A stretch of 64,000 bases of DNA from Lutibacter agarilyticus (GTDB taxonomy: Bacteria > Bacteroidota > Bacteroidia > Flavobacteriales > Flavobacteriaceae): NCBI RefSeq assembly GCF_900188235.1, contig NZ_FZNT01000012.1, positions 1-64,000 of the forward strand. Direction: 5' to 3'. A program made the translations under genes and the position numbers. A model generated the notes under the pieces. That model worked only from the letters and a program-made list of their open reading frames with translations, ran no database searches and had not been told where the DNA came from. Positions 4,524 through 45,034 of the stretch are shown here, piece by piece; the stretch's first letter is position 1; each line of letters begins with the position of its first letter.

Positions 4524-4579
4524 CAAAATTATAGCAAGGTTTAAATAATTCTATCCTGTACTGCACTGTTCTGTGCTGA
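4524..4579 (-). promoter_or_regulatory. Promoter A: three-unit 10-bp direct repeat plus -7 box (aldolase/GH43 unit)
   Basis: Read on the minus strand from 4579 the units are TCAGCACAGA, ACAGTGCAGT and ACAGGATAGA, contiguous, ending at 4550. The box TAATTTTG (4531-4524) fits the Bacteroidetes -7 consensus TAnnTTTG exactly and starts 19 nt after the last repeat base. The aldolase start codon is about 90 nt further on. This is one of six such sites in the PUL. Confidence 0.75.
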
Positions 4580-4761
4580 ATACAGACAGTTTGAGTTGTT
4601 TTTGTTTGTTTAGTAAGGATATTTAAATTAGTGTAATTCTTAAGTTTTGTTTAAGGCTGCTTATTCTGAATATGGAGTTTTAAGGCTGTGTTTAGTTTTT
4701 TTTAATAACATTTGTCTTTTAGGGTTGTTGTTGTGCTTAAATATAATACGCGTAAAAAAAT

Positions 4762-4813
4762 AATTCAAGTAATTCATAATTAATTAATTAATTAATTATG
4801 AATTACTTGAATT
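4762..4813. repeat. Perfect 52-bp AT-rich palindrome between divergent promoters
   Basis: The left arm starts AATTCAAGTAATTCATAATT (762-781) and the right arm is its exact complement (794-813), with AATTAATTAATT at the centre. It lies between promoters A and B in the 681-bp gene-free stretch 4435-5115. A-rich sequence precedes it and TTTT follows, so an RNA copy would look like a bidirectional terminator; a protein-binding or cruciform role is also possible. Besides the two promoters I see nothing else in this intergenic region. Confidence 0.85.
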
Positions 4814-5010
4814 TTGATCTATTTGATGTTTTTAGGTTTAATGTACGGGTGTTACTGTATAGTTGGGTTTAAATACAGAATACTTAAAAGTATTTAAGTT
4901 TAGTAGCGTTAGTAGATTTTATGGTTGAATTAAAAAACAAAAAATGGCTGTCACATATAGGTGTGGTAGAGATTTTAATTAAATTGAGTGTATGTGTGCT
5001 GTGTGTCTGC

Positions 5011-5066
5011 ACAGAACGGTACAGGATAGTACAGGGCAGCATAGTTTCTAAGTTGGAGTTAATTTG
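5011..5066 (+). promoter_or_regulatory. Promoter B: three-unit 10-bp direct repeat plus -7 box (susCD)
   Basis: The contiguous units are ACAGAACGGT (5011-5020), ACAGGATAGT (5021-5030) and ACAGGGCAGC (5031-5040). The -7-like box TTAATTTG (5059-5066) matches TAnnTTTG at all but one fixed position and starts 19 nt after the repeat end. The susC start codon lies 50 nt downstream. Confidence 0.75.
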
Positions 5067-5115
5067 TTGTAGAATAATTTAAATATTAATTTTTTAACAA
5101 ACAAACTTACCAAAC

Positions 5116-42438: not shown

Positions 42439-42451
42439 AACCATTAAATTC

Positions 42452-43695
42452 ATGAAAAATGAAAAAAATTTATTAAATAGTTTTATATGTTTTTTGTTGT
42501 TATCACAAATTACATTGGCACAGGAGGTAATTAAAGGAACCAATAAACTGATTTATCTAAATGAATATCATTTGGGAAAAGTGAAGGAGTTAATAGCAAA
42601 GAATGACGCTTTTTTTACAGAAGCCTATGGTGAATTGATAGTTGAAGCAACAAAAGAATTGGATATTGTTCCAAATCCTGTTACCAATAAAACAACGATT
42701 CCTCCTAGTGGAGATGTACATGATTATATGAGTATTGCTGTTTATAGATGGCCAAATCCTGATACGGAAGACGGAATGCCTTGGATTGTGAAAGATGGGC
42801 AAATAAACCCTATGGTTAGGACTGATGATTTGGATTGGACACGTTTGGGTAAAATGTTTGGTAGCTTGAACAAACTTTCAATGGCGTATTATTTTTCAGA
42901 AGATATAAAATATGCGAATAAAGCCAAATCAATTATAAATACCGGGTTTATAAATGAAAACACAAAGGTGAATCCGAATATCAATTTTGGACAAGGAATA
43001 CCAGGGGAGTTTTTAGGTAGACGTGCAGGAATGATTGAATGGAAAAATATTTCAACTGTAGTTACTACAATACAAATATTGGATGCTAAAAACATCTTTA
43101 ATGATGATGAGATGAAGGTGTTAAACACTTGGTTTTATAATTATTATCAATGGGCGAAAACAAATAAATTTGGTCTTGAAAATGATAATGGTCTACAAAA
43201 TCATTCCACTTGCTATGATTTTCAGATGGTGGGTATTGCTCGTTATTTAGGATTAAATGATGAAGCAAAAAGTAGATTGGAAGCTGCAAAAATGAAACGT
43301 ACTGATACACAAATTGGGCCTGATGGAGCACAACCTCGTGAGCTTGGTAGAACGAGGTCTGTACACTACAGTTCTATGAACTTAAAAGTAATGACTAGTT
43401 TAGCTGAAATGGGAGTACCTCTTGGGGTTGACCTATGGAGTTATATTTCTCCAGATGGAAAAAGCATAAAAAATGCGTTTGAATTTTTAAGACCTTATGC
43501 GCAAGGAGACGAAAAATGGCCTTACAAACAAATTGGGGGCCAGAAAAAGCAATAGACGACGAAATGAAACCGGTATTTAGTATGGCAAGTACAATTTATG
43601 GTGAGCCGTTAATTAATGAAAATGTTCATGTGTATAAGCATTTAAATTATTTACAAAAGTTGCAATATCCTCCATTATTTAAACTAAATAATTAG
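42452..43695 (+). pseudogene. Alginate_lyase-family (PL5/PL38-like) gene with a late frameshift
   Basis: The signal peptide ends ITLAQ. The mature part follows the alginate_lyase (PF05426) pattern: DYMSIAVYRWPNPDTEDGMP, NPNINFGQGIPGEFLGRRAG, LQNHSTCYDFQMVGIARYLG, and IGPDGAQPRELGRTRSVHYS. The first frame stops at 43555. Adding one G to the G5 run in WPYKQIGG gives GPEKAIDDEMKPVFSMAS and continues to KLNN and TAG at 43693-43695, about 415 codons. The break is near the C-terminus and after the likely active site, so it may be a homopolymer sequencing error, a recent mutation, or tolerated truncation. Family relatives cut glucuronan or alginate-like chains. Confidence 0.8.
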
Positions 43696-43747
43696 TAATA
43701 TATTTAATTATAAAATCTAAAATTATTCATCTTAAGAAACTATAATC

Positions 43748-44965
43748 ATGAAAACGAAATTTTTATTTTTTAGCTGTATTCTTTATCTCGTTACATTTTC
43801 AATACAAGCTCAAAAGAAGTCTCAATTAGAAAGTAGAGCTTATTTTGTAGATGTTTTGGTTAATGTTTCTAATCCCGTATTAGAGGCTTTAGCGAATAAT
43901 GAACTTAAAAAAACAATGCCGGTAGAGGTTTCACCAAAACATATAAACGATAGAACCAGATTTGCTTATTTGGAAGCTTTTGGAAGATTACTTTCAGGTA
44001 TCTCGCCTTGGTTAGAATTAGGACCAGATAATTCAAAAGAAGGGAAATTACGCGAAAAGTATATTCAACTTACATTAAAGTGTTTAAAAAATGCAACGGA
44101 TCCAAATGCTGCAGATTATATGAATTTTAGTGAAGGAAGTCAGCCACTAGTTGATGCAGCCTTTTTAGCGCAAGGTTTATTAAGAGCACCCACTCAACTT
44201 TGGGAAAGATCAGATAAGGAAACACAACAACATATTTTAAAAGCATTAAAGCTAACCCGAAAGTTATCGCCAGGTTACAATAATTGGTTATTATTTACGG
44301 CGATGGTTGAGGCGGCTATTTTAAAGTTCGAAGGCGAAGCTGATATGGTGCGAATTCAATATGCATTAAACAAGCATAACGAGTGGTATCTAGGAGATGG
44401 TACTTATGGAGATGGCCCTAATTTTCATTGGGATTATTACAATAGTTTTGTAATTCATCCAATGTTATTAGATATCTACAATGTACTAAATGAGCAAAAA
44501 GAGACATTACAAAATTGGAGATACAGTCAATTTATAGATGGTTATGATGGGATTTTGAAGAGAGCTCAAAAATATGCAGTAATTCAAGAAAAGTTAATTT
44601 CACCAGAAGGAACTTATCCGCCAATAGGACGTTCATTAACATACCGCTTTGGAGCTTTTCAACTGTTGTCACAAATTGCTTTGTTTCAAAAATTGCCAAA
44701 AACGATAAAACCGAGTCAGGTTCGTTCTGCATTACATGCGGTTATTGAAAAACATATGAGTTCAAAAAGGATGTTTACAAAAGATGGTTGGTTAACCATT
44801 GGTTTTTATGGCCATCAACCAGAATTGGCAGAACGATATATCTCAACAGGTAGTTTATATATTTGTGCTGAAATATTTTTAGCATTGGGTTTAAAGCCTG
44901 AATCTTCTTTTTGGGCGGATCCAGCTGAAGATTGGAGTCAAAAAAAAATATGGGCAGATAATTAA
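43748..44965 (+). CDS. DUF2264 (alpha/alpha toroid) secreted protein
   Basis: The 405-residue protein has a signal peptide ending FSIQAQ. It matches DUF2264 (PF10022): FAYLEAFGRLLSGISPWLEL, ADYMNFSEGSQPLVDAAFLAQ, NNWLLFTAMVEAAIL, GDGTYGDGPNFHWDYYNSFV and SPEGTYPPIGRSLTYRFGAF. The fold is that of uronyl hydrolases and lyases, and the gene follows GH105 and a lyase. I recall a link of DUF2264 to beta-glucuronidases (possibly GH154) but am not sure. It is likely a carbohydrate-active enzyme of the same pathway. It starts 52 nt after the corrected lyase stop. Confidence 0.85.
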   Translation: MKTKFLFFSCILYLVTFSIQAQKKSQLESRAYFVDVLVNVSNPVLEALANNELKKTMPVEVSPKHINDRTRFAYLEAFGRLLSGISPWLELGPDNSKEGKLREKYIQLTLKCLKNATDPNAADYMNFSEGSQPLVDAAFLAQGLLRAPTQLWERSDKETQQHILKALKLTRKLSPGYNNWLLFTAMVEAAILKFEGEADMVRIQYALNKHNEWYLGDGTYGDGPNFHWDYYNSFVIHPMLLDIYNVLNEQKETLQNWRYSQFIDGYDGILKRAQKYAVIQEKLISPEGTYPPIGRSLTYRFGAFQLLSQIALFQKLPKTIKPSQVRSALHAVIEKHMSSKRMFTKDGWLTIGFYGHQPELAERYISTGSLYICAEIFLALGLKPESSFWADPAEDWSQKKIWADN

Positions 44966-44988
44966 CTCCCTTTACAACCCTATGCTTA

Positions 44989-45034
44989 ACAGCACAGTAC
45001 AGGATGGTTTTTTTTGTGAGGTTTCATAATCTTG
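44989..45034 (+). promoter_or_regulatory. Promoter F: two-unit 10-bp repeat plus -7 box (second GH2 twin)
   Basis: The units are ACAGCACAGT (44989-44998) and ACAGGATGGT (44999-45008). The -7-like box TAATCTTG (45027-45034) starts 19 nt after the repeat and 41 nt before the GH2 start codon. The repeat starts only 23 nt after the DUF2264 stop codon. Confidence 0.73.

Follow-up and report, generated by a model that had tools for sequence, protein, structure and literature searches.

Six promoters in a polysaccharide utilization locus (PUL) of Lutibacter agarilyticus carry a 10-bp direct repeat at one fixed distance from a −7 box, which raises the question of what regulator reads these repeats and how it acts on the promoters. 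The locus lies in a stretch of 64,000 nt (NZ_FZNT01000012.1:1-64000, referred to as the window), which is C7:1-64000 of a 4.1 Mb genome in 22 contigs (G000). The six repeat sites reported in a preliminary description of the window are all present at the coordinates collected in Table 1, each upstream of the gene named for it (aldolase, susC, sulfatase, GH78 and both GH2-twin units), and at all six a TAnnTTTG-like box starts 19 nt past the last repeat base, with 18 nt in between. Two of the six boxes match TAnnTTTG exactly and four carry one mismatch. A unit ACAGGATA/G, described as nearly invariant, occurs at five of the sites in varying position (middle unit at susC, first at 35979, second at 4550, 26702 and 45008) but not at 10257, which has GCAGGATA. 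The susC promoter holds three units (5011-5040). As we argue below, the repeats are probably the operator of a rhamnose-linked regulator of GntR/LacI type, which as a sugar-bound dimer would activate transcription.

A site model built from 13 sites on a second contig, C22, recovers at a score of at least 14 the six window promoters and nothing else in the window, in agreement with the earlier statement that no further sites occur there; the search returns seven rows, since the susC site is reported twice, in overlapping rows. When the window was shuffled 200 times with dinucleotides preserved, matches at this threshold averaged 0.295 per shuffle, and the top score reached was 24.4. Of the window sites, five reach 30 or more with this model; the weakest (10257), at 21.0, falls under that top shuffle score. 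Conversely, when the model is built from the window's six sites, it returns each of the 13 C22 sites plus three more within C22:72001-225924, and nothing on the opposite strand of this stretch. Because a window-derived pattern had first found the C22 sites, this cross-recovery is a consistency test that is not fully independent. A single 10-bp unit followed by TA, with 3 mismatches allowed, occurs at chance level (420 found, 406 expected).

The preliminary description regarded the repeats as an operator of this type of PUL, which turned out to be too narrow, as the sites also serve a rhamnose-centred regulon of catabolic operons and a second PUL. Searching the whole genome with a sequence-only model built from 20 sites (R1) gave, among the matches listed, 21 at E≤1e-3, all on C7, C22 and C20, with the GH78 operator of the window as the top match and the next match beyond the 21 at E=0.21. 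Twenty of the 21 had been used in training; the remaining one is new and precedes RhaT. Many matches at unrelated genes, which had been set beforehand as a refutation, did not appear among those listed (150 of 6375 candidates scored). The window-derived pattern with at most 2 mismatches gives 20 matches (6 on C7, 10 on C22 and one each on C8, C11, C15 and C20), and three further C22 sites came from its 3-mismatch rows. A box-like sequence is found at the fixed place at all 13 sites on C22 and at the one on C20, and in variant form at the C15 match; the C8 and C11 matches, without a box there, were dropped. A scan of fetched stretches lists 24 sites in all (6 on C7, 16 on C22, 1 on C20 and 1 on C15), with two of the C22 sites scoring below 20 and two preceding one gene.

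On C22, the sites belong to a second PUL of about 123 kb with sulfatase/GH78, GH3, GH88-type, GH106, GH59, GH39 and GH5 domain genes and BNR_4 proteins, and both RhaT and the rhamnose operon (fused aldolase/dehydrogenase, rhamnose-isomerase type, kinase-like, FucA-like aldolase and aldehyde dehydrogenase genes) lie downstream of sites. A GntR/LacI paralogue (30% identical) and xylulokinase-like, xylose isomerase, XylE and transketolase-like genes follow the C20 site, and the C15 site heads a gene of D-mannonate oxidoreductase (UxuB) type, which is site-headed in the related genomes G015 (97% identical protein) and G025 (42%) as well and probably is a member of the regulon. A further G015 site heads a glucuronate isomerase gene. 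Downstream of the last C22 site lies a partial gene whose counterpart in the related genome G037 (90% identical) resembles, far below the cut-off, the lactate dehydrogenase subunit LdhH. Since ulvan consists of rhamnose, xylose and uronic acids (PMC11101340), matching the rhamnose, xylose and uronate targets, the substrate is likely to be ulvan or another green-algal polysaccharide related to it. As a side observation, two sites about 200 bp apart (C22:102022 and 102223) precede a sulfatase-GH78 fusion gene, and the 20-bp repeat of the upstream one is identical in all four site-rich genomes of the genus.

Our search for the regulator covered part of the C22 genes and returned two candidates with DNA-binding domains, a GntR/LacI protein and an AraC-family protein (138877-139758). 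The gene of the former lies outside the window, at C22:118704-119759 on the minus strand, divergent from the rhamnose operon. Its 351-aa product has a GntR winged helix (PF00392, E 7.4e-11, residues 17-80) paired with a LacI-type sugar domain (Peripla_BP_3, PF13377, E 1.2e-9), the combination of the AraR type. The predicted structure of the G037 orthologue, based on a 33-sequence alignment (mean pLDDT 84.9, pTM 0.65), features a winged helix, with helices at 17-30, 43-49 and 54-66 and two strands, and an alpha/beta domain. The top Foldseek matches are LacI-family proteins, 10-18% identical, while the winged helix of its profile matches GntR proteins including AraR (4egy, the arabinose repressor) and GabR structures and, below the cut-off, a PdxR model. 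Residues 53-61, the recognition segment, are invariant in the 33 aligned proteins and nearly so in another comparison. Seven loci from other genomes (L223, L227, L242, L243, L245, L252 and L256, at about 8770-11050) harbor tandem GntR/LacI pairs, in which the second copy is 59-67% identical to the query and keeps a similar winged helix, which suggests two sensors for one operator.

To place the motif in a wider context, we scanned related genomes and loci with the site model and found that the sites recur, tracking the GntR/LacI candidate. Within the genus (38 genomes; 150 of 6375 candidates scored with R1), strong sites occur, among the matches listed, only in G000, G015, G025 and G037; elsewhere in the genus (34 genomes) no listed match is better than E 0.003, and matches there at E 0.003-1 were treated as noise. 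An orthologue of the candidate (at least 71% identical) is encoded in these four site-rich genomes and in no other of 19 tested. Across 299 genomes of the family, the candidate (E≤1e-80) is found in 60 and the motif (E≤1e-3) in 57, with both in 53, the motif only in 4, the candidate only in 7 and neither in 235 (Fisher 5e-46). Relaxing the motif threshold to E≤0.01 gives 81 genomes, 56 of them with the gene, and at E≤1e-4 all 44 genomes have it. In the 69 genomes with rhamnose isomerase, the motif is present in 52 of 57 with the candidate versus 1 of 12 without it (Fisher 2.6e-8), the sole exception among the 12 being G333, which is 67% complete.

Proximity follows the same pattern. From 293 relatives found, 80 loci were kept, including two that belong to the sister genomes G037 and G015; 78 hold a site, and their 139 sites compare with 1 in one shuffle of each locus. 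A site lies at most 1.5 kb from the GntR/LacI gene in 72 of the 80 loci, and 56 of the 139 sites stand no more than 500 bp upstream of this gene, on the other strand. The next gene encodes the fused rhamnulose-phosphate aldolase/dehydrogenase at 55 sites, RhaT at 15, the regulator at 1 and XylB at 1; at 58 it is another gene and at 9 there is none within 450 bp. Nine of these 58 other genes were checked and comprise two of SusC type, one sulfatase, two fructose-1,6-bisphosphatases, one with a carbohydrate-binding module (CBM), one lectin-type, one GDSL-type and one without a match. The fructose-1,6-bisphosphatase genes (L219 8868-9875, L251 8892-9893) are site-headed beside the regulator, which would tie gluconeogenesis to growth on rhamnose in some species.

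The operator has the consensus ACAGnAYAGT ACAGGATAGn, followed by 18 nt and the TAnnTTTG-like box. We analyzed the box in 155 distinct sites from 80 other loci that had been selected on the repeats only (score at least 16), the box columns being unused in selection. T is found at +19 in 143, at +23 in 142, at +24 in 147 and at +25 in 106 of these sites, A at +20 in 126 and G at +26 in 100, corresponding to the TAnnTTTG −7 box of Bacteroidota primary-sigma promoters. Within 60 nt of 170 repeat-only matches (score at least 14), the top box lies at offset 19 in 100 and at 18 in 9, and no offset besides 19 holds more than 9. The units are spaced by 10 bp in 59 of 70 sites and by 5 bp in 8, and by eye each 10-bp unit is composed of two AYRGN elements, a 5-bp sub-repeat. 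The consensus omits a T at +6 that 17 of the 20 own sites share, because other genomes do not conserve it (85 of 155 sites); this column still counts in the scores of the 24-site own-genome scan and the 80-locus scans. No extra conserved element was seen upstream of the repeats between −21 and −90 in the own sites and between −21 and −35 in those of other genomes. A palindromic reading was rejected, as the operator is, by eye, symmetric only in the central GTAC.

Taking the position of the −7 box in Flavobacterium psychrophilum, −12 to −5 (PMC9723704), the operator would extend from about −50 to −31 and hence overlap the −33 region at fixed phase, as would be expected if it were the site of a class II activator. 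A −33 TTG at spacers of 17-23 is absent from all 82 box-bearing sites of other genomes and present at one of the 20 own sites, compared to counts of 9 and 2, respectively, at control positions further upstream; the absence is partly forced, because the operator occupies the place of the −33 box. Promoters of this kind should be weak alone. The initial proposal that a one-turn repeat replacing the −33 box points to a direct activator is thus consistent with the arrangement seen, and class II activation is favoured by the replaced −33 box together with the fixed phase. We infer binding by the candidate, activation rather than repression and the identity of the effector from these patterns. The regulator would bind rhamnose or an early catabolite, the most likely effectors since the rhamnose operon is the commonest target; the sugar-bound dimer would then sit on a head-to-tail pair of 10-bp units between about −50 and −31 and, standing in for a −33 box, contact RNA polymerase with the primary sigma factor at the TAnnTTTG box. 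A single signal would thereby turn on the two rhamnose-polysaccharide PULs, the uptake of rhamnose, the catabolism of rhamnose and xylose, and uronate steps.

Computation shows the motif, its constant phase, the set of genes that it heads and its co-occurrence and proximity with the regulator gene, but several points weigh against reading them as an activator operator of the GntR/LacI protein. GntR-family operators are described as generally inverted repeats (PMC5320631), and AraR of Bacillus subtilis as a repressor acting on palindromes (PMC4218819); the operator here is a direct repeat and shares neither symmetry. T at +19 is missing from 12 of the 155 sites, and in 61 of the 170 repeat-only matches the best box lies at an offset other than 18 or 19. 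With up to 3 mismatches, the window-derived pattern gives 43 matches versus 26 for the reversed control, so that the 3-mismatch rows are mostly chance. Every genome of the genus has at least one match at E≤1, and weak matches in the four site-rich genomes may therefore include noise. The p-values for co-occurrence ignore kinship, and the family search considered 19 candidates per genome under stricter filters (150 in the genus search). Seven genomes have the candidate without the motif at E≤1e-3 (G038, G116, G200, G253, G254, G272 and G292) and four the motif without the candidate (G222, G255, G282 and G333). The 80 loci were selected by the candidate gene, and two of them are without a site.

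The same regulator could act on the same operator as a repressor that blocks RNA polymerase until sugar releases it. AraR of B. subtilis represses (PMC4218819), and a protein at −50 to −31 would block polymerase too. Repression, however, does not need strict phase to the −7 box, and the TTG counts given above describe promoters that are without a −33 box; we consider this mode unlikely.

We regard it as very improbable that an OmpR-type, DeoR-type, hybrid two-component system (HTCS) or other regulator binds the repeats, even though OmpR-type factors are able to bind such direct repeats and the lone C15 site has an HTCS gene at a distance of about 11 kb. Moreover, the motifs of DeoR-type RhaR take the form of 10-11 bp direct repeats (PMC3870299). 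However, G015, with 32 model matches at E≤1 among those listed, gave no DeoR match, and the OmpR-type matches in four genomes all lie outside site-bearing clusters, the nearest at about 23 kb (G037), so that neither type is supported. The 17 AraC-domain matches of the own genome include five HTCS-sized frames, on C6, C8, C15, C17 and C19 and none on C7 or C22, and HTCS was also rejected because the units are 10 bp apart and not about 21. None of these regulators accounts for the proximity to the GntR/LacI gene in the 80 loci.

Least probable of all is activation by the AraC-family protein of the second PUL (C22:138877-139758), whose gene lies within a site-bearing cluster, whose counterpart, AraC-type RhaR, governs rhamnose genes in Bacteroides (PMC3878776, PMC3870299), and whose close orthologues coincide with the motif at E≤1e-3 in 12 of 12 family genomes (3 of 15 genomes, with 34-39% identical proteins, being excluded and none of them having the motif at this threshold), but which we rejected on its distribution, as it is absent from 45 of 57 motif genomes and from G037 with its 17 model matches at E≤1 among the matches listed, with the periodicity reported for Bacteroides RhaR, 21 bp and not 10 (PMC3870299), as a further point against it. 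In G015, AraC-like fragments with stops (C144:63608-63845) lie about 5 kb from an intact copy and are probably a decayed duplicate.

How does the proposed GntR/LacI activator compare with known systems? It shares with AraR of B. subtilis a comparable domain pairing (the effector part of AraR being LacI-type), the sugar response and the structural match of the winged helix. A GntR-family repressor of alginate catabolism, AusR, has reportedly been studied in Zobellia galactanivorans; going by the title of that study, the likeness is GntR control of a flavobacterial algal polysaccharide pathway, and the protein is a repressor. What separates AraR from the present case are palindromes and repression (PMC4218819) as opposed to a 10-bp direct repeat phased to the −7 box. 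Members of the MocR/GabR/PdxR/TauR group have a GntR winged helix, commonly direct-repeat operators, often an activating role and genes divergent from their targets (PMC5320631), but MocR carries an aminotransferase-like C-terminal domain where the candidate has Peripla_BP_3/LacI-like, which places it outside that group. RhaR/RhaS systems likewise control rhamnose genes, and the 10-11 bp repeats of DeoR-type RhaR resemble ours (PMC3870299); they differ in protein family, and the regulon here is wider than the single operon of Bacteroides RhaR (PMC3878776). Bacteroides PUL operons under HTCS control have upstream direct-repeat operators too, but their sites are spaced by about 21 bp, as opposed to 10 bp here, and the systems have a periplasmic sensor domain (PMC3878776); a Pfam scan of the candidate gave no HTCS-like histidine-kinase or periplasmic-sensor domain. 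The rhamnose regulators described in PMC3870299 are of AraC, DeoR and LacI types, and the words 'GntR' and 'Flavobacter' are absent from its main text. We recognised no description of this regulator or operator in a literature search whose coverage mostly left out subscription journals, and found there no described cognate regulator for the use of rhamnose-rich algal polysaccharides in marine flavobacteria.

Table 1. Operators, −7 boxes and downstream genes in the window.
Feature	Position	Strand	Remarks
Operator, ACAGTGCAGT + ACAGGATAGA	4550..4569	-	upstream of class II aldolase gene (3145-4434 minus)
−7 box TAATTTTG	4524..4531	-	aldolase promoter
Operator, three units ACAGAACGGT ACAGGATAGT ACAGGGCAGC	5011..5040	+	upstream of susC (5116-8316)
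−7 box TTAATTTG	5059..5066	+	susC promoter
Operator, GCAGAACGGA GCAGGATACT	10238..10257	+	upstream of sulfatase (10353-12056); weakest of six
−7 box TAAGTTTG	10276..10283	+	sulfatase promoter
Operator, ACAGTATAGT ACAGGATACA	26683..26702	+	upstream of GH78 (26785-29544)
−7 box TATTTTTA	26721..26728	+	GH78 promoter
Operator, ACAGGATGGT ACAGAATAGT	35960..35979	+	upstream of GH2 (36029-39028)
−7 box TAATTTTA	35998..36005	+	GH2 promoter
Operator, ACAGCACAGT ACAGGATGGT	44989..45008	+	upstream of GH2 twin (45075-48068)
−7 box TAATCTTG	45027..45034	+	GH2-twin promoter
Target: class II aldolase	3145..4434	-	79% identical to FucA-like aldolase of own rhamnose operon
Target: SusC/SusD pair	5116..10125	+	after susC site
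Sulfatase, GH3, CBM6 protein, rhamnosidase-like, GH43, AAL_decarboxy-domain protein, GH106	10353..26580	+	after sulfatase site
GH78, PL8-type lyase, GH2	26785..35862	+	after GH78 site
GH2, GH28-like, GFO/IDH/MocA oxidoreductase, GH88-type, Alginate_lyase-family, DUF2264, GH2 twin	36029..48068	+	after last two sites

The genes that follow the sulfatase, the GH78 and the last two sites (Table 1) presumably share transcripts with their heads. Two of them stand out: the alpha-acetolactate decarboxylase-domain protein encoded at 22433-23233, between the GH43 and GH106 genes, is an odd member of a PUL, and the GH28/rhamnogalacturonase-like gene at 39144-40188 is split across two overlapping open reading frames in different frames and may thus be frameshifted or hold a sequencing error.

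A more far-reaching version of the proposal, to which we assign about an even chance, would make the GntR/LacI protein a rhamnose-sensing class II master switch acting family-wide, which takes the place of the −33 box on head-to-tail 10-bp repeats, each of two AYRGN elements. It would link the breakdown of rhamnose-rich algal polysaccharide outside the cell with uptake, with the catabolism of rhamnose, xylose and uronates, with the oxidation of lactate and, in some species, with gluconeogenesis. If this is true, a monosaccharide end product, and not an HTCS-sensed oligosaccharide, controls these PULs. The analysis gives a testable regulator, operator and regulon for the use of a rhamnose-rich algal polysaccharide, ulvan or a relative, by marine flavobacteria. 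It would add a GntR/LacI type beside the AraC, DeoR and LacI rhamnose regulators and a direct-repeat activator mode for the GntR/LacI domain pairing, while the motif predicts which enzymes are members of the pathway and provides a candidate rhamnose-inducible promoter for Bacteroidota.

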